A DNA stretch of 64,000 nt, from positions 1 through 64,000 of the IMG/VR virus record IMGVR_UViG_3300021364_000008; one strand, 5' to 3'. Positions within the stretch are counted from its first letter, which is position 1. Each line of letters begins with the position of its first letter. The notes beneath the pieces are model-generated. The model worked only from the letters and a program-made list of their open reading frames with translations, was not told where the DNA came from and made no database searches. A program made the position numbers and the translations under genes. The DNA comes from a virus. Below are positions 1,895-26,984 of this stretch, piece by piece.

Positions 1895-2093
1895 AGAAGT
1901 AACCTCTGAGCTTGGAGAACCTGATTGTAGATTAACTGAACCATTTTTAGTAGATCAATCAGGTTCAACTTTATCACCTTGGTTGATTGAGTTTACAACT
2001 GAAAATCAATATATGATATCATCAGACAAAATTATAACTCTCTCTGATCCAAAACCAACCTTACTTGAAAAATATCAGGATTTGATTAAATGA
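1836..2093 (+). CDS. Small conserved protein, gp43-adjacent
   Basis: This is an 85-residue protein of unknown function. The start at 1836 (MKPIKLILLMNNQ) was chosen because GAGGAG lies ten bases upstream. An in-frame ATG at 1818 is also possible. It overlaps the preceding gene by about 60 bases and overlaps the gp43 start by four (ATGA), so translation is probably coupled through into the polymerase. It shares an alternating hydrophobic N-terminal pattern with its neighbour. Confidence 0.6.
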   Translation: MKPIKLILLMNNQILISQVEEVTSELGEPDCRLTEPFLVDQSGSTLSPWLIEFTTENQYMISSDKIITLSDPKPTLLEKYQDLIK

Positions 2094-3565
2094 AGTTTTA
2101 TACAAACGTGCAAATGATTGGGAACAAGTTCCTAGTTCGTGGTTATGAGAATGGTGAGCACGTTATGTTCAAAGATGAATATAATCCAACACTTTATGTT
2201 AAAAGTAATAAGGAAACTAAATATAAAACATTAGATGGTGAGTATGTTGAGGCAATTCAACCGGGAACTGTGAAAGATTGTCGTGAATTTTATAAAAAGT
2301 ATGAAGGAGTTCAGAACTTTAAAATTTACGGTAATGACAGATATGTTTATCAGTATATTTCTGACAAATATCCTCAAGATGAAATTAAGTTTGATATTAA
2401 TAAAATCAAGCTTGTAACTCTTGATATTGAAGTGGGATCTGAAAATGGATTTCCTGACCCAAAAGTTTCTGATCAAGAAATTCTTCTTATTACAATTCAG
2501 GACTATTCTACTAAACAGATTATTACTTGGGGGAATGGTCCTTTTAAGAATAAGCAAAGTAATGTTTCTTATAGAGAATTTACAAATGAGTATTCTCTTC
2601 TAAATGATTTTTTATATTATTGGGAACATAATATGCCAGAAGTTGTTACTGGTTGGAATGTTCAGTTCTTTGATATTCCTTTCATTTATGGGAGATTGGA
2701 AAAAGTTCTTGGGGAAAAAAGAGCTAAATCATTTTCTCCTTGGGGATTGGTGAGTAAAGAGGAAGTATTTATCAATAATAGAACAAATTTATTGATGGAT
2801 ATTGGTGGAATTACTCAACTAGATTATCTTGATTTATATAAAAAATTTACTTATAAGGCACAAGAATCTTATCGTCTAGATCACATTGCTAATGTGGAAC
2901 TTGGGGAGAAGAAATTAGATCACTCAGAATTTGATACTTTCAAAGATTTCTACACCAATGGATGGCAAAAGTTTGTAGAATATAACATCATTGACGTGGA
3001 ACTTGTTGATAGATTGGAAGATAAGATGAAACTGATTGAACTTGCTTTAACTATGGCATTTGATGCCAAGGTTAATTTTGGAGATGTATTTTATCAGGTT
3101 CGTATGTGGGATAATATTATTTACAATTATTTGAAAAAGAGAAATATTGTAATTCCCCCAAAAGATAGGTCTGAAAAGAATGAAAAGTATGCTGGAGCTT
3201 ATGTTAAAGAACCAGTTCCTGGTATTTATGAATGGATTTTGTCTTTGGATTTGACATCTCTATATCCTTCCCTCATTATGCAATATAATATTTCTCCAGA
3301 AACTCTCCTTGATGAAAAATATTCAGGAGTATCTGTTGATAAATTATTGAATAAAGAAATTAATATTGAAAATATTGACGGAAAATGTGTATGTTCAAAT
3401 GGTTGTATGTATGATACAACTAAAAGGGGAATATTTTCAGAACTTGTGGAAAAAATTTTTAATGATAGACAGTATTTTAAAAAAGAAATGTTGAAGGAAA
3501 AAAATAGACTGGAGGAAATTGAAAGTGAATTAAAGAAAAGAGGAATTGATTTAAATACTTTATAA
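2090..3565 (+). CDS. 43A: DNA polymerase gp43, N-terminal fragment
   Basis: This is the first piece of the family B replicative polymerase. It carries the 3'-5' exonuclease motifs LDIEVGS (about residue 110), NVQFFDIPF and YNIIDVELVD, and ends shortly after polymerase motif A (DLTSLYPSLI, about residue 385). The frame stops after KKRGIDLNTL, inside the charged helical hairpin at the tip of the fingers domain. Motifs B and C are encoded by a separate frame 690 bp downstream, so neither piece alone can polymerise DNA. The stop is followed at once by a homing-endonuclease gene. Known split family B polymerases assemble non-covalently, and I infer the same here. Confidence 0.93.
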   Translation: MKFYTNVQMIGNKFLVRGYENGEHVMFKDEYNPTLYVKSNKETKYKTLDGEYVEAIQPGTVKDCREFYKKYEGVQNFKIYGNDRYVYQYISDKYPQDEIKFDINKIKLVTLDIEVGSENGFPDPKVSDQEILLITIQDYSTKQIITWGNGPFKNKQSNVSYREFTNEYSLLNDFLYYWEHNMPEVVTGWNVQFFDIPFIYGRLEKVLGEKRAKSFSPWGLVSKEEVFINNRTNLLMDIGGITQLDYLDLYKKFTYKAQESYRLDHIANVELGEKKLDHSEFDTFKDFYTNGWQKFVEYNIIDVELVDRLEDKMKLIELALTMAFDAKVNFGDVFYQVRMWDNIIYNYLKKRNIVIPPKDRSEKNEKYAGAYVKEPVPGIYEWILSLDLTSLYPSLIMQYNISPETLLDEKYSGVSVDKLLNKEINIENIDGKCVCSNGCMYDTTKRGIFSELVEKIFNDRQYFKKEMLKEKNRLEEIESELKKRGIDLNTL

Positions 3566-3588
3566 TATAAATAATAAAGAGTGTTTAA
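3551..3588 (+). promoter_or_regulatory. Late promoter inside hairpin, HNH gene in gp43
   Basis: The octamer TATAAATA (3566-3573) sits in the loop of an imperfect hairpin. Arms are 3551-3561 and 3577-3588, with one G-T pair and one bulged G. The 3' arm ends five bases before the HNH ATG at 3594. Late transcripts starting about seven bases after the octamer would lack the 5' arm. Confidence 0.7.
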
Positions 3589-3593
3589 GTCAA

Positions 3594-4268
3594 ATGAATT
3601 ATTTAAAATCTTATTGTAAGTTAATTAGAACTGCTGAAAAAAGAAATTGGAAAAGGAAAAATATTGATTTTTATATCGAAGAACATCATATTTTTCCAAT
3701 ATCAATCTATGGAAAAAATGACAGAATAGTTGGATTGACACCAAGAGAACATTTTTTGGCACATTGGTTACTTTATAAAATTTGTATGAAAAGATATGGT
3801 CTAAGAAATAATAAAACATTTAGTATGGGTTCTGCTTTTGCTATGATGTGTGTTACTAATGATTTGCAAGAAAGGAATTATACATCTAGGAAGTATGAGA
3901 TAGTTAGAAATTGTTTATCTACTATAAGAACTGGAAAGTCTAGAGACGATATGAAAGGGAAAAAATATTTTGGGGCAAGTGAAGATGTTATAAAAGAAGG
4001 TATAGAAAAGATGAGGAAAAAGAAAACGGGAATGAAGATAGAATATCCAAAAAATAGAAAATCTTCTCCCTGTTCATCAGAAAAAATAAAAAAAATATCA
4101 GAAACTAGAAAAAATACAAGAGTTAAATTTATTTCTATGAGTGAAGAAGAATTTGAATTGTGGATCTCCAAACAAAATTTTTATAGGAAAGATGGTGCGA
4201 GAAATTCAAATGTTACTCGTACATTAATGTGGAGAAATATTCCTTTGGAGAAATACTATGGGACTTGA
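3594..4268 (+). CDS. HNH homing endonuclease interrupting gp43
   Basis: The 224-residue protein has an HNH core: EEHHIFPISIYG (residues 24-35) and REHFLAHWLL (about 48-57). A Lys/Arg-rich C-terminal half contains NUMOD3-like segments (SSEKIKKISETRK). Such enzymes cut an uninterrupted copy of the target gene so that repair copies the endonuclease gene in. The flanking sequence outside the frame is under 30 bp, too little for a self-splicing intron, so this is a free-standing gene that has split the polymerase. Its last bases overlap the gp43 second-fragment start and supply that fragment's GGAG site. Confidence 0.9.
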   Translation: MNYLKSYCKLIRTAEKRNWKRKNIDFYIEEHHIFPISIYGKNDRIVGLTPREHFLAHWLLYKICMKRYGLRNNKTFSMGSAFAMMCVTNDLQERNYTSRKYEIVRNCLSTIRTGKSRDDMKGKKYFGASEDVIKEGIEKMRKKKTGMKIEYPKNRKSSPCSSEKIKKISETRKNTRVKFISMSEEEFELWISKQNFYRKDGARNSNVTRTLMWRNIPLEKYYGT

Positions 4269-5367
4269 TTATTCAAAAATTTCTACAGATGAGTTGAAAA
4301 AGCAACGTCAAAATTGTATTAAAAGTATTTCGAAATATACAAATAATCAAATGGCAAGAAAAATACAACTTAATAGTTTGTATGGGGCAATAGGAAACGC
4401 ATACTTCAGGTATTACAAACTAGCAAACGCAGAAGCAATTACTCTTTCTGGTCAACTCTCAATTCGTTGGATTGAAAATAGAATGAATCAGTTTCTAAAT
4501 AAGATTTTAAAAACTAAGGATGTAGATTATGTCATCGCATCTGACACAGATTCAATTTATCTTAATCTTGGACCTATTGTTAATAAATTTTTTAATAATA
4601 AAGTTGGGAACAAGAACAAGATTGTGGAACTCTTGGATAAGATATGTCAAGAGCAGTTTGAACCGTTCATCGAATCCAGTTATAAAGAACTTGCGTCATA
4701 TGTCAATGCATATGAGCAAAAAATGCAAATGAAGAGAGAAAATATTGCCGATCGTGGAATATGGACTGCTAAAAAAAGATATATCTTGAATGTCTGGGAT
4801 AGTGAAGGTGTTCGATATGAAGAACCTAAACTTAAGATGATGGGAATTGAAGCAGTCAAATCTTCTACTCCAGCACCTTGTCGTAAGATGATTAAAAATG
4901 CTCTTAAGTTGATGATGAGTGGTACTGAGGATGATGTAATTGATTTTATTGAGAAATGTCGCTCTCAATTTAATAAATTTTCGCCAGAAGAAATAGCATT
5001 TCCTAGAACTGTAACTGATGTGGAAAAATGGAAATCATCATCTGGAATCTATAGTAAGGGAACACCCATTCACGTTCGTGGAGCACTTCTTTTCAATCAT
5101 TATATTAAAGAGAAAAAATTAACTAACAAATACTCTTTGATTCAAAATGGCGAAAAGATTAAATTTTGCTACTTAAAAAAACCAAACATTATTCATGAGA
5201 ATGTGATATCTTTTATATCAGATTTTCCGAAGGAATTTGGTATTGACAAGTATATTGATTATGAACTACAATTTGAAAAAGCATTCTTAGAACCACTTAA
5301 ATCAATTCTTGATGCTATTGGATGGAAAACAGAAAAAACAACTAGTCTGGAGGACTTTTTTTCATAA
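4258..5367 (+). CDS. 43B: DNA polymerase gp43, C-terminal fragment
   Basis: This second piece of the polymerase (369 residues) carries motif B KIQLNSLYGAIGN (about residues 35-47), motif C ASDTDSIYLN (about 92-101) and the thumb. It ends SLEDFFS, close to the clamp-binding tail of T4 gp43. The start ATG follows GGAG by seven bases, so it has its own translation start. RGID at the end of fragment A and GLDYSKIST here are remnants of one continuous loop. It overlaps uvsX by one base. The palm aspartates of motif A and motif C are on different polypeptides. Confidence 0.93.
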   Translation: MGLDYSKISTDELKKQRQNCIKSISKYTNNQMARKIQLNSLYGAIGNAYFRYYKLANAEAITLSGQLSIRWIENRMNQFLNKILKTKDVDYVIASDTDSIYLNLGPIVNKFFNNKVGNKNKIVELLDKICQEQFEPFIESSYKELASYVNAYEQKMQMKRENIADRGIWTAKKRYILNVWDSEGVRYEEPKLKMMGIEAVKSSTPAPCRKMIKNALKLMMSGTEDDVIDFIEKCRSQFNKFSPEEIAFPRTVTDVEKWKSSSGIYSKGTPIHVRGALLFNHYIKEKKLTNKYSLIQNGEKIKFCYLKKPNIIHENVISFISDFPKEFGIDKYIDYELQFEKAFLEPLKSILDAIGWKTEKTTSLEDFFS

Positions 5368-6284
5368 TGGATTTTTTAAAGGACATTGTAAAGGAAATTG
5401 GTGACGATTACACACAACTTGCATCTGAAATTGATGAAACTGAAACTTATGTAGACACAGGTTCATATATTTTTAACGCATTAGTTTCTGGTAGTGTATT
5501 TGGTGGTGTATCTGGAAATAAAATTACTGCCATTGCTGGTGAGTCTTCTACTGGCAAAACTTTCTTTTCTCTTGCTGTTGTTAAAAATTTTCTTGATAGT
5601 AACCCAGATGGTTACTGCCTGTATTTTGATACTGAAGCAGCGATCACTAAATCTCTTTTGGAGAGTCGTGGAGTTGATACAACCAGAACTGTTGTTGTCA
5701 ATGTCGTAACAATTGAAGACTTTCGTACCAAAGCATTGAAAGCTGTAGATATCTACTTAAAGAAACCTGTAGAAGAACGCAAACCTTGTATGTTTGTGCT
5801 AGACTCTTTGGGTATGCTCTCAACTGAGAAAGAAATCAAAGATGCTCTAGATGATAAGCAAGTTCGTGATATGACCAAATCACAACTTGTAAAGGGTGCA
5901 TTCCGAATGCTAACTCTCAAGTTGGGTCAAGCAAAAATTCCAATGATTGTGACTAATCACGTATATTCCGTAATTGGACAATATGTTCCTATGCAGGAAA
6001 TGGGTGGGGGTTGTTTAGTTGCGGGAACTAAGATACAAACAGAAAATGGTTCTATTCCTATTGAATCTATTCAAGTTGGTGACAAAGTGAGAACTATGTT
6101 TGGTTATTCATCAGTTACTCACACTTTCCATTTCACCGACAAAGATGTTTATGAATTGGAATTGGAGGATGGAGAAACTATTAGATGTTCTGGTGAACAT
6201 AAATTTTTAGTAGATACTGGAGATGGTTATGAATGGAAATCTGTTACTGAGTTATTACCTTCAGATACTATCAAATCTATGTGA
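5367..6284 (+). CDS. uvsX-N: UvsX recombinase N-fragment fused to N-intein
   Basis: Residues 1-215 are the RecA-like UvsX ATPase with Walker A GESSTGKTF and Walker B MFVLDSLG. Cys216 starts a 90-residue N-intein with block A (CLVAGTKIQTENG), block B (ETIRCSGEHKFLV) and VGDKV between them. The frame stops after SDTIKSM, so the intein C-terminal blocks are not in this protein. The insertion point is after MQEMGGG, in the conserved glycine-rich DNA-binding loop region. UvsX does strand exchange in T4-type recombination-dependent replication. Function requires trans-splicing with the product starting at 6961. Confidence 0.93.
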   Translation: MDFLKDIVKEIGDDYTQLASEIDETETYVDTGSYIFNALVSGSVFGGVSGNKITAIAGESSTGKTFFSLAVVKNFLDSNPDGYCLYFDTEAAITKSLLESRGVDTTRTVVVNVVTIEDFRTKALKAVDIYLKKPVEERKPCMFVLDSLGMLSTEKEIKDALDDKQVRDMTKSQLVKGAFRMLTLKLGQAKIPMIVTNHVYSVIGQYVPMQEMGGGCLVAGTKIQTENGSIPIESIQVGDKVRTMFGYSSVTHTFHFTDKDVYELELEDGETIRCSGEHKFLVDTGDGYEWKSVTELLPSDTIKSM

Positions 6285-6289
6285 AAGTT

Positions 6290-6326
6290 GGTTCTGGACT
6301 AAATAATAATAGTTTAGTCCAGAACC
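6290..6326 (+). promoter_or_regulatory. Perfect 14-bp hairpin with late promoter, HNH gene in uvsX
   Basis: Arms 6290-6303 and 6313-6326 are perfect complements around a 9-base loop. ACTAAATA (6298-6305), a late-promoter-like octamer, spans the end of the 5' arm and the loop. The 3' arm abuts the TTG start codon of the HNH gene. A short T-run follows, so the element could also act as a weak terminator for read-through transcripts. Confidence 0.75.
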
Positions 6327-7001
6327 TTGTTTTTATCAAATAAGTATACTGATTGTTATTTCCGTATTATTAATAAGGCAAATCTTAGGAAACTTCCTCA
6401 AATTACTGAATGTCATCATATTATACCTAAATCATTAGGTGGAGGGGAAGAAGCAGAAAACAAAGTATATTTAACACCAAGAGAACATTTTGTCTGTCAC
6501 CATCTTCTTCTGAAAATGTTGGAGGGAAAATTAAAGCAGAAAATGTGTTATGCCTTTTATAATATGAAACGTAGTAATGGTAATGGTGTTAGATGTAAAA
6601 ATGTCAATTCTTATGATAGAATAAGATCACACTACTCACATCTTACTTCGGGTGAAAACAATCCATTTTATGGTAAGGGACATTATGGATTTTCTAACCC
6701 GATGTCAAACCCTGAAGTTCGGGAGAAACATAAACAAATCGTTTCTTCACCTGAACATAGAAAGAAGATGAGTGATAAAATGTCTGGTGAAAATAATCCA
6801 TTTTACGGAAGAACTCATTCAGATGAAACCAAGAAACATCTTTCTGAGTTGGCGTCTCAGAGAATAGGTAAAAACTCTCCCCGTTATGGGAAGAAACACA
6901 AACAAGTTGTTTGTGAACACTGCCAAAAACAAATCACTTACCCAATGTATAAGAGGTGGCATGGAACGAACTGTAAAATCTATAAAGAAAATAAAAACTG
7001 A
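6327..7001 (+). CDS. HNH homing endonuclease inside the uvsX split intein
   Basis: The 224-residue protein has the HNH core [13 protein letters not shown] (about residues 28-40) and [11 protein letters not shown] (about 52-62), then repeated NUMOD3-like DNA-binding motifs (SGENNPFYG twice, [11 protein letters not shown]). The start is TTG: the protein then begins MFLSNKYTD, the form I know from related phage HNH proteins, and no ATG is available. No clear Shine-Dalgarno sequence precedes it. It is a separate gene, not fused to either intein half, and its 3' end overlaps the uvsX C-fragment by 41 bases in another frame. Confidence 0.88.
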
Positions 7002-7431
7002 AGATGTTTATGACATCACTGTTGAGGGAGAACATCATTATATTCTTGATAATGGTGTTGTGTCTCATAACTCTGGTCTTAAATATGCTGCTTCTACAAT
7101 CATTTATCTTTCTAAAAAGAAGGAGAAAGATGGAACAGAAGTCATTGGAAATATTATTAAAGCAAAGACTGCAAAATCACGCTTGAGTAAAGAAAATAAG
7201 GAAGTAGAGATTCGCTTGTATTATGATGAGAGGGGGCTAGACCGATACTATGGTCTCTTGGAGCTTGGAGAAATCGGTGGACTTTGGAAAAATGTAGCAG
7301 GACGCTATGAAATTGATGGTAAGAAAATTTATGGGAAACAAATTCTTGCAGAACCTGAAAAATATTTTACGCCCGAATTAATGGAGAAACTTGATGAAAT
7401 TGCGAGACACGAATTTAGTTACGGTAAGTAA
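6961..7431 (+). CDS. uvsX-C: C-intein fused to UvsX C-fragment
   Basis: Residues 1-37 are a C-intein with block F ([16 protein letters not shown]) and block G (DNGVVSHN). The +1 extein residue is Ser38. From there [13 protein letters not shown] continues UvsX exactly where the N-fragment stops. The ATG at 6961 was chosen because GAGG lies just upstream and the C-intein then has a normal length. Splicing would join MGGG to SGLKYAAS, recreating the RecA L2-like segment. The gene overlaps the HNH gene at its 5' end and the oxygenase gene at its 3' end. Confidence 0.92.
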
Positions 7432-8080
7432 AACACCATTATCACTATTTCCAATACCTGTTGAAATCTTTAATTTTAATAATCATTATCACGATTTAAA
7501 TGTATCTTTAATTGAAGATATAATTAAAGAAAAGAATAATGATCCTTCTGGTGCTAATCACAGCAATATGTGGGGGTGGCACAGTAAAACAAATTTGGAA
7601 AGAGTTTATGAGAGTTTTACTAGACTCAAAGATATAATTGAATCATGTGGAAATGAGTATTGTAAACAGTATGGATATAAAGATGGTTTAGTATGCTCAG
7701 ATCTTTGGGCAAATGTGAATGGTCCTAATGATTTAAATTTTAATCATCACCACGGAACTTCTGCTCTTGCTGGTGTTTATTATCCAGTCGAATCAATACT
7801 TGACTGTGGTTGTATTTTCAACTACACTAATAATAACCCATTAAAAGGTGGCACTTGGAATAATGTTGATGGGGGATCTCTTGTTTTTCAAGATCCTTCC
7901 TACGGAAAGAAAATCCATCTCATAAAGGATAAAGATTCTCCGTATAATGTAGATTTTTATCATTTATATCCAACTTCTGGAGTTTTGGTTTTATTTCCAA
8001 CCTACTTATTGCATAGTGTACTTCCATTCAGAGATGATAAAACTAGGGTAAGTATATCTTTTGCATTTATCTATGGATAA
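7394..8080 (+). CDS. 2OG-Fe(II) oxygenase
   Basis: This is a putative 2-oxoglutarate/iron dioxygenase of the type common in cyanophages. [15 protein letters not shown] and the distal HSVLPF...TRVSISFAF blocks match the double-stranded beta-helix family in which the first motif and the distal His bind iron and the Arg binds 2-oxoglutarate. Length (about 228) is normal. The start is uncertain: ATG 7394 overlaps uvsX-C by 38 bases, and the family-like sequence begins about ten residues later. The substrate is unknown. It overlaps gp41-N by eight bases. Confidence 0.78.
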
Positions 8081-8702
8081 AATTGAATTTTTAATATTGA
8101 AGTGTCTTATTAACAATGAAGAATATGCTAGAAAAGTTTTACCCTTTATTAAGGAAGAATATTTTGAAGAATTTGAGCAAAAGGTAGTATTTCAAGAAAT
8201 TTCTAAGTTTATTCTTGAGTATAATAAAATTCCCACAAAGCAAATTCTTGATATTGAAGTTGAAAAACGTAATGATATCAATGGAGATCAATATAAATCC
8301 ATAAGCCAACTAGTTGATAATCTTGATGAAATTGCTGTTGAATATAAATGGTTGATTGATTGTACAGAAAAATGGTGTAGAGATCGTGCAATTTATCTTG
8401 CCCTGATTGAATCTATTCAACTGGTAGATGATAAGGGTGATAAAAATAGAGATGCAATTCCATCAATATTGCAAGATGCTCTTTCAGTTTCATTTGACAA
8501 TCACGTAGGCCATGATTATCTTCAGGACTACAAAGGAAGATTTGAATTTTATAATAAAAAGGAGGAACGAGTTGAATTTGATTTGGAATATTTTAACAAA
8601 ATTACCAAAGGTGGTCTCCCTAATAAAACTCTCAATATCGCACTTGCTGGTTGTGTTCACCCAGAAACCAAAGTTAAGATTAGATTTAGGAAGATTTCTT
8701 GA
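8073..8702 (+). CDS. 41-N: Replicative helicase gp41 N-fragment with 16-residue N-intein
   Basis: Residues 1-193 are the N-terminal domain and linker of the DnaB-like helicase gp41, ending NKTLNIALAG just before the Walker A loop. Cys194 begins CVHPETKVKIRFRKIS and the frame stops after these 16 residues. CVHPETKV matches intein block A. The rest of the intein and the ATPase domain are encoded from 9389. An N-intein this short identifies the atypical split class. The last 17 bases overlap, in antisense, the end of the HNH gene. Without splicing the helicase has no complete P-loop. Confidence 0.9.
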   Translation: MDKIEFLILKCLINNEEYARKVLPFIKEEYFEEFEQKVVFQEISKFILEYNKIPTKQILDIEVEKRNDINGDQYKSISQLVDNLDEIAVEYKWLIDCTEKWCRDRAIYLALIESIQLVDDKGDKNRDAIPSILQDALSVSFDNHVGHDYLQDYKGRFEFYNKKEERVEFDLEYFNKITKGGLPNKTLNIALAGCVHPETKVKIRFRKIS

Positions 8703-9354
8703 TTTTGGAGTTTGGTGCTGGTTCTCCTGTTCCAAATTTCCAACCTTCGTTTAATTTAGTATCAACATCTTCTGGAAGTATTCTTTTCCATCCTTTTGTT
8801 CCTGGTAAGTGCATTACCTTTTTGCCTTTGTGTGCCTTTCCTCCAAGAGATGCTCTTTCCCTTCTTCCTTGATTTGATGCCCAGTAATTAAATTCTTTTG
8901 ATGCTCTCTTTTTTCCTCCAAGAGATGCTCTTTCTTTTCTGCCTTCTTCTGTGCTCCAATAATAAAAATTTTTAACTTTATTGTTTAGATATTCTTGTTT
9001 TTGAGTTTCTATTCCTTTAATCATCCATTCTTTTCTTTCTTCTACTGGTGTTGAAAAGAAACCAAGTTGATTATCTCTACAAAACTCTCCAATTATTTTT
9101 CTATGTTGTGGTGATAAATTAGCACCTAACATTTTCATAGATCTTAAATCATTTGGATTTTTGTAAATCTTCCAAAGTAAATAGTGTGCTATGATGTGTT
9201 CTCTAACATTCAAGTATGTGAGGTTGCAATCATCATCTGTTCCTCCCATATGTTTAGGAACAATATGATGCTCGTGTAGTCCTGAATATTTCTTATAGTT
9301 TTCTCTTCTTAACTTATTGCCTTCGCATAAGTTAGAATAGATACGATCAAACAT
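8686..9354 (-). CDS. HNH homing endonuclease, antisense, within split gp41
   Basis: This is the only convincing protein gene on the minus strand in this window. It encodes 222 residues with HNH core LHEHHIVPKHMGGT (about residues 26-39) and REHIIAHYLLW (about 52-62). Three related C-terminal repeats follow (EEGRKERASLGGK, NQGRRERASLGGK), which are probably NUMOD-type DNA-binding units. A GGGACAGGGA stretch precedes the ATG. It lies between the two halves of a fractured helicase gene but is transcribed against them and converges on gp41-N with a 17-base overlap. Confidence 0.9.
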   Translation of the reverse strand: MFDRIYSNLCEGNKLRRENYKKYSGLHEHHIVPKHMGGTDDDCNLTYLNVREHIIAHYLLWKIYKNPNDLRSMKMLGANLSPQHRKIIGEFCRDNQLGFFSTPVEERKEWMIKGIETQKQEYLNNKVKNFYYWSTEEGRKERASLGGKKRASKEFNYWASNQGRRERASLGGKAHKGKKVMHLPGTKGWKRILPEDVDTKLNEGWKFGTGEPAPNSKIKKSS

Positions 9355-9376
9355 TCCCTGTCCCTGCTACTGTTAT

Positions 9377-9384
9377 TATTTATA
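9377..9384 (-). promoter_or_regulatory. Late promoter for the antisense HNH gene
   Basis: TATAAATA on the minus strand lies 22 bases upstream of the HNH start codon at 9354. Unlike the + strand endonuclease genes, no hairpin spans it. Confidence 0.75.
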
Positions 9385-9388
9385 TAAA

Positions 9389-10561
9389 ATGTGGATTGAA
9401 AAAGAAACATCAATTGCTGAAATCAAAACATTACTTGATAATGGATATGAGGTAGAAGTTGATTCGCCTGATGGATATGTTCCAGTCAATTTCTTTATTA
9501 ACAAAGGAATGTATGATGAATATGTTTTAAAGGTTGATGGTGAAGAACCAATTAGGTGTAATGCCGATCATTTATTTGAAACATCTTTTGGGTGGATGAA
9601 AGCATCGCATCTTTTTGAAAAATATAAGACAAATCATTTTTTAACTAAAAATGATTATAAACTTGGTAGTGTCTTTAAAACAGGAAATCAAATACCTATT
9701 GTTGATATTAATGTAAATCACCCAAATCATAGGTATTATACTAATGGTGTTTCTTCTCATAATACTGGTGTGGGTAAATCTCTATTCATGTGCCATGTGG
9801 CTAGCTCCGTCTTGCTCCAAGGGAGGAATGTACTCTACATTACAATGGAAATGGCAGAGGAGAAAATTGCTGAGCGAATTGATGCAAACCTTTTAAATAT
9901 CCCAATTCAGCAATTGACAGATCTTCCAAAGTCAATGTTTGAAACCAAAGTTACAAACATTTCTAAAAAAACTCAGGGAACTTTTATAATTAAAGAGTAT
10001 CCAACTGCTTCTGCACATGCTGGACACTTTAAATCACTTCTTAATGAACTTGCACTTAAGAAATCATTTAGACCTGATATTATTTTCATTGATTACCTTA
10101 ATATTTGTGCTTCCTCTAGATATAGGGGAAACCTTTCTGTCAATTCTTATTCGTATATTAAGGCAATTGCTGAAGAACTTCGAGGATTGGCGGTGGAATT
10201 CAATGTCCCCATCGTTTCTGCTACTCAAACCACTCGCAGTGGTTATGGTAGTTCTGATGTTGAACTTACTGATACTTCTGAATCCTTTGGTCTCCCTGCT
10301 ACTGCTGATCTTATGTTTGCCCTTATTAGCACTGAAGAGTTGGAGGAGTTGGGGCAGATTATGGTAAAGCAACTGAAGAATCGTTATGCTTCAACTGATA
10401 AATATAGAAGGTTCGTCTTAGGAATTGATAGGTCAAAAATGAGATTATATGACTGCGAGCAATCAGCTCAAGAAGATATTCTTGACAACAGCAAAGAAGA
10501 CGAGTATGATTTCCATGAGGAAAACAAACCCAAGAAAACATTTGAAGGATTTAAATTCTAA
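9389..10561 (+). CDS. 41-C: 125-residue C-intein fused to gp41 helicase C-domain
   Basis: Residues 1-125 are a large C-intein: block B EEPIRCNADHLFE, block F PIVDINVNHPNHRYY and block G TNGVSSHN. Thr126 is the +1 residue and starts TGVGKSLFMCHVA, the Walker A loop. The rest is the RecA-type helicase core with IIFIDYLNICASS (Walker B) and PIVSATQTTRSGYG. Joined to the N-fragment the loop reads ALAG-TGVGKS. No clear Shine-Dalgarno precedes ATG 9389, and the sequence there is AT-rich. T4 gp41 unwinds the fork and carries the gp61 primase. Confidence 0.92.
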   Translation: MWIEKETSIAEIKTLLDNGYEVEVDSPDGYVPVNFFINKGMYDEYVLKVDGEEPIRCNADHLFETSFGWMKASHLFEKYKTNHFLTKNDYKLGSVFKTGNQIPIVDINVNHPNHRYYTNGVSSHNTGVGKSLFMCHVASSVLLQGRNVLYITMEMAEEKIAERIDANLLNIPIQQLTDLPKSMFETKVTNISKKTQGTFIIKEYPTASAHAGHFKSLLNELALKKSFRPDIIFIDYLNICASSRYRGNLSVNSYSYIKAIAEELRGLAVEFNVPIVSATQTTRSGYGSSDVELTDTSESFGLPATADLMFALISTEELEELGQIMVKQLKNRYASTDKYRRFVLGIDRSKMRLYDCEQSAQEDILDNSKEDEYDFHEENKPKKTFEGFKF

Positions 10562-10562
10562 T

Positions 10563-10973
10563 ATGACTAAAGAAATTGATACTAAAAAGTACATCGAATT
10601 TGTTTCTAAAACTACAAGTGCTCCAAGTTCTGATTATGCTGCACTTATGACTCGACTGACTCAACTAGAAACAGAAGATGCAAATGTTCCAAAACTTATG
10701 ACTGCCGCATTTGGACTTTCTGCTGAAGCAGGTGAATTTACTGAAGTTGTAAAAAAGATTTTCCTTCAAGGCAAACCATACAATGAAGAAAATGTATTTC
10801 ATATGAAAAGAGAACTTGGAGATATTTGTTGGTACATGGCCCAAGCATGTATGGCACTTGATACTTCATTTGAAGAACTGATGCAAATGAATTATGAGAA
10901 GCTAAGTGCAAGATATCCAGAAGGAACTTTTGATGTATGGCGTTCTGAAAATCGTAAGGATGGAGATCTTTAA
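10563..10973 (+). CDS. mazG: MazG-like nucleotide pyrophosphohydrolase
   Basis: The 136-residue protein carries the all-alpha NTP pyrophosphohydrolase pattern: FGLSAEAGEFTEVVKK supplies the ExxE metal ligands and MKRELGDICWYMAQ the ExxD pair. MazG is a widespread cyanophage auxiliary protein, proposed to hydrolyse nucleotides or alarmones. The ATG at 10563 lies one base after the gp41 stop. It ends at a terminator and is the last gene of this early run. Confidence 0.88.
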   Translation: MTKEIDTKKYIEFVSKTTSAPSSDYAALMTRLTQLETEDANVPKLMTAAFGLSAEAGEFTEVVKKIFLQGKPYNEENVFHMKRELGDICWYMAQACMALDTSFEELMQMNYEKLSARYPEGTFDVWRSENRKDGDL

Positions 10974-10978
10974 TACTT

Positions 10979-10999
10979 AGACCCTTAAGGGTCTTTTTT
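10979..10999 (+). terminator. Intrinsic terminator after mazG
   Basis: Perfect 6-bp stem AGACCC / GGGTCT with loop TTAA, then a T-run whose last T starts the TATAAATA late promoter. Confidence 0.85.
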
Positions 11000-11007
11000 T
11001 ATAAATA
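11000..11007 (+). promoter_or_regulatory. Late promoter TATAAATA
   Basis: A perfect octamer directly fused to the preceding terminator T-run, 27 bases before the start codon of the internal-protein gene. Confidence 0.85.
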
Positions 11008-24587: not shown

Positions 24588-25322
24588 ATGTATTATGTTT
24601 ACGAATTAATAGACCCGAGAGTTAATCTTCCTTTTTATGTTGGAAAGGGGAAAGACAAACGGGTCTATTTTCATTTGTCTGAAAAATCAAGGGCAAAAAG
24701 TGAAAACAAGAGGAAATATAATAAGATACAAAAAATGAGAGAAAATGGATGTGAACCTGAAATAAAAATAGTAAAATATTTTGAAAATGAGAATGATGCT
24801 TATGATTACGAGGAACTATTAATAGAAAAATATGGAAGAATAAGATATGATGAAAATGGAATATTAACAAATATTTGTGAAAGTTCCAGACCACCTAAGC
24901 ATAAAGGAAAAACATATCAAGAAATATATGGAGATAAGTGGGAAGAACAAATTCAAAAAAGAATGAAAACAAAAGAAAAGAGAGGAAACTATGGTGGAGT
25001 GAGAAAACATACAGAAGAAACTAAGAGAAAAATAAGTGAAAAAGTAGCAGGAAAAAATAATCCAAGTTATGGTGTTCCTTGTAGTGAAGAACGAAAAAGA
25101 AAAATAAGTGAAAGAGCAAAAGAAAGATTTGCTGGAGGTTTTAAATCGCCATCATCAGTAACTTATCTTCTAACAAGTCCTTCTGGGGAAAAATTTGAGG
25201 TGTTTGGAGAACTTAAAAAGTTTTGTAAATCTCAAAACATTTCTTATGCTACTATGCACGCAGCAATACTTTATGAAAGAAAGGGGCCAAGAAGAAATGG
25301 ATGGAGTATTGAGAAAGTTTAG
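24588..25322 (+). CDS. GIY-YIG homing endonuclease after nrdB
   Basis: The 244-residue protein has an N-terminal GIY-YIG nuclease: MYYVYELIDP and PFYVGKGKDKRVYFHL, with a catalytic-type Glu in YEELLIEKYG. Two NUMOD3-like repeats follow (HTEETKRKISEKVAGKNNPS and CSEERKRKISERAKERF), then a helix-turn-helix end (FGELKKFCKSQNISYATMHA). It is free-standing, next to a gene type (nrd) often targeted by such elements. Its 3' end overlaps the next gene by 26 bases. Confidence 0.9.
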   Translation: MYYVYELIDPRVNLPFYVGKGKDKRVYFHLSEKSRAKSENKRKYNKIQKMRENGCEPEIKIVKYFENENDAYDYEELLIEKYGRIRYDENGILTNICESSRPPKHKGKTYQEIYGDKWEEQIQKRMKTKEKRGNYGGVRKHTEETKRKISEKVAGKNNPSYGVPCSEERKRKISERAKERFAGGFKSPSSVTYLLTSPSGEKFEVFGELKKFCKSQNISYATMHAAILYERKGPRRNGWSIEKV

Positions 25323-26405: not shown

Positions 26406-26984
26406 ATGATACACAGACATCATATTATTCCAAGACATATGGGTGGTGATGATAGTGAGGGAAATATTGTGGAATTGCCTTATTGGGCACATATAGAAGT
26501 TCATAAAAGATTGTGGGAAGTGTGTGGAAGGTTGGAAGATAAACTTGCATATTGTATGCTTTCGGGAAAAACAGAAGAGGCTGAAAAAGTAAGAATAGAA
26601 CTTGCCAAAACAAAATATCAAAAATGGTTAAAAGAAAAACCAGAAGAAGTTGAAAGGTGGAAGAAAAATATTAGCAAATCCAAAAAAGGAGTAAAATGTC
26701 TTCCTGATGAACACTATAAAAAACTTGGTAATGATTTAAAAGGTATTCCAAGAAGTCAAGAAGTTAGAGATAAAATTAGTAAAGCAAAGAAAGGAAAATC
26801 TGTTGCCCAACCAAATCAAATGAAAACTTATGAAATTATAAAACCTAATGGTGAAGTTTTGATTGTTAAAGGATTGAATGAGTTTTGTAAAAATGAAGGA
26901 ATTGATGCTTCAAATATGTGTAATGTTGCTAAAGGAAAGTTTAAGCAACATAAAGGATACAAGTGTAGATTAATAAATACCTAA
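26406..26984 (+). CDS. HNH homing endonuclease
   Basis: The 192-residue protein starts at the HNH motif itself (MIHRHHIIPRHMGGDDSEGN and WAHIEVHKRLW). NUMOD3-like repeats follow (SKSKKGVKCLP and DKISKAKKGK), then a C-terminal helix-turn-helix (LNEFCKNEGIDASNMCNVAK). It lacks the short N-terminal extension of the other HNH proteins here, so it may be slightly truncated. It follows the SegE-like gene and precedes the ADP-ribosyltransferase-like gene. Confidence 0.85.
   Translation: MIHRHHIIPRHMGGDDSEGNIVELPYWAHIEVHKRLWEVCGRLEDKLAYCMLSGKTEEAEKVRIELAKTKYQKWLKEKPEEVERWKKNISKSKKGVKCLPDEHYKKLGNDLKGIPRSQEVRDKISKAKKGKSVAQPNQMKTYEIIKPNGEVLIVKGLNEFCKNEGIDASNMCNVAKGKFKQHKGYKCRLINT
26972..26979 (+). promoter_or_regulatory. 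Late-promoter variant AATAAATA
   Basis: The octamer lies 19 bases before the ADP-ribosyltransferase-like gene, inside the end of the HNH gene. Confidence 0.55.

Follow-up and report, generated by a model that had tools for sequence, protein, structure and literature searches.

The question raised by the DNA analyzed here is how a phage can make a gp41 helicase when the gene is broken inside the Walker A motif (P-loop) of the enzyme. The stretch, called the window below, comprises 64,000 nucleotides (positions 1 to 64,000) of the 99-kb IMG/VR virus record IMGVR_UViG_3300021364_000008. The C-terminal helicase part of its gp41 (the C-extein) is about 80% identical to the counterparts in Synechococcus and Prochlorococcus myoviruses and other parts of the window match Synechococcus phages, so we assign it to a T4-like cyanophage. 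Our analysis indicates that gp41 is very probably a fractured gene, with a VidaL-type split intein in the P-loop, a mobile cassette that carries a putative homing endonuclease gene (HEG), losses of that gene among the relatives and one apparent re-fusion of the intein.

The gp41 N-piece (8073-8702, plus strand) encodes 193 extein residues, which end in ...NKTLNIALAG, where the Walker A loop begins, followed by 16 intein residues (the N-terminal intein piece, IntN). The C-piece (9389-10561, plus strand) begins with the C-terminal intein piece (IntC) and matches Pfam DnaB_C with an expectation value (E) of 2e-16. An earlier reading of the letters made without database searches (the sequence-only reading) had one frame stopping 16 residues into an intein and a second one supplying a 125-residue IntC, and both frames lie exactly where it placed them. 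It also held that the P-loop is divided between the pieces as ALAG and TGVGKS; a complete P-loop is indeed absent from either piece, and the uninterrupted gp41 proteins of P-SSM2 and Bellamy, which read NIALAGTGVGKSLF (ALAGTGVGKS across the site), confirm the division and therefore place the insertion inside the Walker A motif. The antisense HNH gene that it described between the halves is present as well (8686-9354, minus strand), with the correction that the HEG ends inside the IntN frame, where its stop codon falls and the two genes overlap by 17 nt. At the site of the gp41-1 intein in the C-extein of the window (TTRSGY-GSSDVE) nothing is inserted.

The conserved residues of the two intein pieces are those of class 1: Cys1, the residues N-A-D-H (found in CNADH, with NxxH kept in nearly all related loci), block F (VDINVNHPNHRYYTNG), and the terminal HN and Thr+1, both invariant. 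The closest solved protein by profile is VidaL (6vgv, E 1.2e-15), followed by the gp41-1 intein (1.3e-6), and a phmmer search with the single sequence matches VidaL at 3e-12. When aligned with 6vgv, the window intein breaks at the same residue as VidaL. The AlphaFold2 model of a relative whose intein is contiguous (L044, with 29 relatives in the input) is a Hint fold with a predicted local distance difference test score of 94.7, in which strands 7-13 and 19-24 are connected by a loop of residues 14-18, the break point of the other alleles. Against the PDB this model gave VidaL as the top match with a template modeling (TM) score of 0.88 and the next ones at 0.6-0.75; 50 matches had E<=0.001, and all among the matches listed are intein or Hint-type domains. 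Residues and predicted fold thus agree with a class 1 Hint-fold intein. VidaL is the top match by profile, by phmmer and by fold and has its break at the same position, which argues that the gp41 P-loop intein is a member of the VidaL type in a different host gene. The two share homologous sequence, fold, Cys1 and a break after strand 2 (6vgv/6vgw), but are only about 30% identical, and the window intein differs in its host gene, gp41, in its Thr+1 and in the antisense HEG that accompanies it. VidaL is split after strand 2 with a 16-residue IntN, while AceL-TerL is split after helix 1 (PMC13014065); the same source defines the S1 and S2 splits. The VidaL type has an IntN of about 15-17 residues, and the S2 inteins AceL-TerL and GOS-TerL, the latter an atypical split with Ser/Cys nucleophiles, have one of 25-37. 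We rejected membership in the AceL-TerL/GOS-TerL type, since the gp41 break precedes strand 19-24 and helix 27-33. The likeness to both types proposed by the sequence-only reading therefore stands for VidaL and falls for AceL-TerL, whose split site is a different and later one.

A scan of IMG/VR with the IntC protein found 80 relatives, 78 of them full-length at 57-97% identity, and wider scans added further ones; one scan of cellular genome contigs gave no confirmed match. After repeated contigs were taken out, 100 loci were classified, the window included, and the counts that follow are of contigs, many of them near-copies, and not of independent events. The intein is split with an antisense HEG in 70 loci (two of which, L010 and L037, keep only remnants of it), split with a sense HEG in 5, and split with the HEG not detected in 7, among which L129 is counted on a profile search alone. 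In 6 more the HEG is present and the N end lies off the contig, 7 have a contiguous intein (L039, L041-L044, L046 and L089), and 5 received no class. The split of L070 has overlapping frames. Four additional loci beyond the 100 are likewise split, and the IntN is 14-23 residues long across all split loci. Breaks of this atypical type are common in phage metagenomes, and their rarity had been overstated. The atypical 16 + 125 split in gp41 itself is borne out by its residues, the break homologous to that of VidaL, the fold, the selection described below and the agreement of about 100 loci.

Median ratios of nonsynonymous to synonymous change (dN/dS) were 0.04 for IntN, 0.14 for the HEG, 0.26 for IntC and 0.11-0.12 for the exteins, which indicates purifying selection on all the pieces. 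From the conserved chemistry, the fold, the selection on every part and the existence of alleles without the HEG in which both halves remain open, we infer that the gp41 halves trans-splice. gp41 would be made as two polypeptides; the 16-residue IntN would dock on the 125-residue IntC and complete the Hint fold, as suggested by the L044 model and by the structure of VidaL, and the pair would then join ALAG to TGVGKS and restore Walker A.

Movement of the cassette was examined with a same-codon test, which takes the fraction of shared amino acids that also share the codon in pairs of loci with divergent exteins within the superclade of the window. In the exteins this fraction is mostly near the chance value given by codon usage (0.44 just past the splice junction against 0.41 by chance), while values in the cassette range over about 0.55-0.95, with 0.95 at the extreme end of IntC, and the step coincides exactly with the C-terminal splice junction. 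This contrast, together with the step, indicates that the IntN-HEG-IntC cassette moved between old gp41 lineages with the intein edges as its borders. The HEG product matches the phrog_655 homing-endonuclease group, its Pfam HNH score being below threshold, and homing driven by the HNH protein is likely the natural explanation of the movement: the protein would cut intein-free gp41 at the P-loop, and the cassette would then be copied in.

The HEG can be lost with both frames still open (L029/L031, L064, L070 and L100/L103), and these alleles point to repeated loss of the gene from loci that stayed split. Deletion in L029/L031 has reduced the HEG to TGATTATGGAATTT, with IntC now beginning at the ATG of this remnant, and in L064 stop and start codons overlap as TAATG. 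Six contiguous alleles (L039, L041-L044 and L046) make up a single clade, and in at least four the frame runs open through the intein into the helicase. Their IntC is about 98% identical to that of the split, HEG-bearing L028, L030 and L045, with five substitutions and one codon gap, and the clade nests within HEG-bearing alleles in the protein tree with support of 99/84 and 100/97. Its junction reads AGGAAG-ATTTCTTG-GTGGATT, and loci that carry only the HEG have the same ATTTCTTGA, which is the antisense of the final HEG Lys-Lys codons. In the loci with additional cargo genes and in the deep lineage L091 this HEG tail (TTTCTT or TTTTTT) lies outside an IntN frame that has its own stop; the tails of L091 and L030 can be aligned in 20 columns (19 matches, one gap) with a score of 33, while none of 2000 shuffles exceeded 28. 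The contiguous intein thus seems to carry a footprint of the HEG at residues 15-16, and this footprint, together with the nesting in HEG-bearing alleles, gives the direction from split to contiguous. We hold with moderate confidence that a split intein reverted to a contiguous one when loss of the HEG joined the halves in frame and left two HEG codons behind as residues 15-16, the confidence being limited because the footprint is short and the tree modest. A gp41 extein tree was not used for conclusions, since several C-exteins contain the gp41-1 intein and such a tree is unreliable for some rows. Uninterrupted gp41, which the sequence-only reading had suggested looking for in close relatives, therefore occurs both as intein-free and as contiguous-intein alleles, neither of which contradicts the finding.

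Several other explanations of the broken gene were weighed. That gp41 is a two-piece enzyme which assembles without splicing, with the intein pieces as remnants, has a parallel in a gene-in-pieces ribonucleotide reductase (Friedrich 2007, cited in PMC10448857), and the window also has a gp43 that an HNH gene interrupts without an intein, so bipartite enzymes are tolerated in this phage; we nevertheless consider it very improbable for gp41, where the break cuts through Walker A, the splice-site residues are invariant across loci, the IntN has a dN/dS of 0.04 and the contiguous alleles keep the intein in an open frame. A frameshift, an assembly error or a decayed gene has next to no chance of being the cause: error in sequence or assembly is ruled out because about 90 contigs, drawn from many assemblies, are broken at this point and have open frames on either side, and this recurrence across IMG/VR assemblies likewise disposes of the frame-correcting error that the sequence-only reading had allowed for. 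Removal of the insert from the RNA as a group I or II intron, so that a contiguous intein results, is just as hard to credit; HNH genes like this HEG do occur in introns, but an Rfam search of window positions 5000-11000 at E up to 1 found no match, the IntC piece carries its own ATG, and the HEG-less junctions are so short (TAATG in L064, TGATTATG in L029) that no room is left for an intron.

The two remaining alternatives accept the split intein and concern its history. The HNH gene could be a passenger that homes into the intein only, or be inactive, with the intein spreading by ordinary phage recombination; the HEG can be reversed at this place or exchanged for distant HNH genes (36% identity in the L007 type), and cargo genes accumulate there too, which fits this possibility; we find it doubtful given the exact same-codon step at the splice junctions with no decay into the gp41 exteins, the purifying selection on the HEG and the conservation of its promoter. 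The L039-clade alleles could instead be ancestral, in which case the HEG would have split a contiguous intein by introducing stop and start codons. Compared with L044, the inserted DNA has base-exact borders (TCTTG/GTGGATT), contiguous alleles could seem rare if the HEG removed its empty targets, and the distant UvsX intein of SCTP-2 and L089 are both contiguous, so the split must be derived at some depth. Even so, the clade is nested in HEG-bearing split alleles, the sampled deeper gp41 lineages are all split except L089, a tree reconstruction needs two changes for the fused state and the IntN tail ATTTCTTG looks HEG-derived, and we judge this order of events unlikely. A fractured gp41 with a mobile HEG cassette and one re-fusion remains our preferred account, and the points that weigh against it are these: the match of the HEG to Pfam HNH has E 0.005 and 17.4 bits against a cut-off of 21.4; the middle part of IntC evolves fast; the footprint TTTCTTG is just 7-8 nt; and cassette recombination makes the 138-column trees rough, with a bootstrap that had not settled. 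The dependence of replication on splicing, which the sequence-only reading had put forward, would be one of the weaker points of that reading.

Table 1. Features of the split gp41 locus in the window (positions of the window)
Feature	Position	Strand	Remarks
gp41 N-extein, 193 aa	8073..8651	+	ATG 8073; phrog_19 E 1.8e-42
IntN, 16 aa, CVHPETKVKIRFRKIS (8652-8699), and stop TGA	8652..8702	+	
HNH homing-endonuclease-like gene (HEG), 222 aa	8686..9354	-	phrog_655 E 1.4e-15; Pfam HNH weak
TTTCTTGA, final IntN codons and stop, antisense of HEG Lys-Lys codons (apparent HEG-derived tail)	8695..8702	+	
689 bp extra relative to contiguous-intein allele L044 (TCTTG / ... / GTGGATT)	8702..9390	.	
CCCTGTCCCTGC, between HEG start and IntC, kept in close relatives	9356..9367	+	
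TATAAATA, consensus of T4-type late promoters, lying 22 nt 5' of the HEG start	9377..9384	-	
IntC, 125 aa, ending ...NGVSSHN	9389..9763	+	ATG 9389; VidaL profile match E 1.2e-15
gp41 C-extein, 265 aa, starting TGVGKSLF (Thr+1 and remainder of Walker A)	9764..10561	+	phrog_19 E 8e-84

Among 49 distinct loci with an antisense HEG, 45 have TATAAATA close to the IntC start on the minus strand, against 0.6 in shuffles, and it occurs in one of the nine loci in which the HEG is missing or in sense orientation. This conservation points to a promoter, and the antisense HNH gene would be expressed late from this T4-type late promoter of its own. In many of the loci with cargo genes the plus strand has a similar late-promoter motif across the IntN end (4 of 18 exact, 10 at one mismatch). 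With motifs on the minus strand at IntC and on the plus strand at the IntN end, an early replication gene seems to contain late transcription units, and that of the HEG runs opposite to gp41. A further motif, CCCTGTCCCTGC(T/C)A, is near the HEG 5' end in the antisense loci and on the IntN side in the loci with a sense HEG (L119, L120 and L122, just after the IntN stop). Its minus strand, GGGACAGGG, may include the ribosome-binding site of the HEG; a binding site, a ribosome site and a homing site are the candidates for its role.

Other arrangements of the HEG and the intein were seen among the related loci. In L007, L021, L059, L063 and L065 the antisense HEG is replaced in place by a different HNH gene of 36% identity, the tail of which also enters the IntN frame, so that IntN ends in RSAI. 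Plus-strand cargo genes lie between IntN and the HEG in L001-L006, L009, L010, L012, L013, L015, L016, L018, L020, L023, L027, L037, L040, L050 and L058, and are MDAQELRNLQEAYMEV-type, phrog_3708 or metalloprotease-like. L068 (563-757) carries a second copy of the N-extein stretch TKGGLPNKTLNIALAG immediately before IntN, perhaps a repair scar of homing. The contiguous P-loop intein of L089 (approximately 2415-4208) is independent and divergent, has a RYNSVEKEW junction and sits on a long branch; it could be an old contiguous form or another re-fusion. In L008, L019, L064, L039, L042-L044, L100 and L103, gp41 additionally contains, at SGY/SSSD, a canonical split IntN like that of gp41-1, and since the P-loop intein of L008, L019 and L064 is split too, their gp41 would be assembled from three polypeptides by two trans-splicing reactions.

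The genes preceding gp41 in the window are broken as well. uvsX (5367-7431) is fractured by a canonical split intein, with the N-part after MGGG/CLVAGTK; its halves are separated by an HNH gene on the same strand (about 6327-7001), and a strong terminator-like hairpin (6290-6326) directly follows the stop of its IntN. The gp43 DNA polymerase (2090-5367) consists of the frames 2090-3565 and 4258-5367, which match residues 1-486 and 474-831 of P-SSM2 gp43, with an HNH gene (3594-4268) and no intein between them; a TATAAATA late-promoter site (3566-3573) precedes that HNH gene. gp43, uvsX and gp41 are thus three consecutive replication genes, each broken by an HNH gene in a different way. Further homing-endonuclease-like genes, GIY-YIG-like and HNH-like, lie near nrdB (24588-25322 and 26406-26984).

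Fractured genes, reported by Dassa et al. in 2009 (a paper cited in PMC6892783 and PMC10448857), are reportedly essential phage genes in two pieces with a split intein at the break and a free-standing endonuclease gene between the parts. In gp41 we find the same combination, namely a conserved and essential enzyme gene in two pieces, a split intein and a free-standing endonuclease gene between the halves; it differs from the usual case in that the break is near the N end of the intein and not at the usual position of about residue 100, and in that the HNH gene is antisense with what appears to be a late promoter of its own. Short IntN pieces have precedents. The split UvsX intein of the PA5oct/MIJ3 type (NC_071039), known from Pseudomonas phage isolates of the PA5oct group, has a short IntN in a P-loop as well (17 residues, GESG/SGKS) and an IntC 34% identical to ours, but lies in another host gene and has an intervening 478-residue open reading frame on the same strand, which gave no Pfam match. 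VidaL is, by eye, closest to the split UvsX intein of PA5oct-like phages, and Salicola phage SCTP-2 has a contiguous UvsX version of the intein. The PolB16 OarG intein shares the S1-type split and a 15-residue IntN (PMC10189870; 8cpn), but is cysteine-less, lies in DNA polymerase B and resembles ours weakly in structure (TM 0.53). The gp41-1 split intein (6qaz, 6riz) also splits cyanophage gp41 and has the Hint fold, but is a distant relative inserted at SGY/SSSD with a canonical split of 88 + about 37 residues. A split intein with an intervening endonuclease gene and an IntN of 15-16 residues (VidaL, PolB16) are therefore known already. The sequence-only reading put the novelty too high in this respect, given the 16-residue IntN of VidaL, the split UvsX of isolated Pseudomonas phages and the fractured genes as a published kind. 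Within the literature covered we found no description of the combination at the gp41 P-loop, of the antisense, apparently late HEG or of the natural series with an apparent re-fusion, although an earlier description of a gp41 member may exist.

At one site in one gene family these loci give a natural series from no intein, through a contiguous intein, a split without the HEG and a split with it, to a split with the HEG and cargo genes and to a reversed HEG. The origin and reversibility of split inteins, which are standard tools of protein engineering, are otherwise mostly inferred from single snapshots. Because some members of the series are about 98% identical, the making and unmaking of split inteins by a HEG, and the cost of the split, become directly testable. 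The dozens of natural IntN partners of 14-20 residues for a VidaL-like intein are of the short-tag kind sought for protein labeling. In the phages themselves, an essential replication gene here contains an antisense, apparently late, gene, and if the re-fusion is true, gain and loss of the antisense HEG would toggle the same intein between cis and trans splicing.

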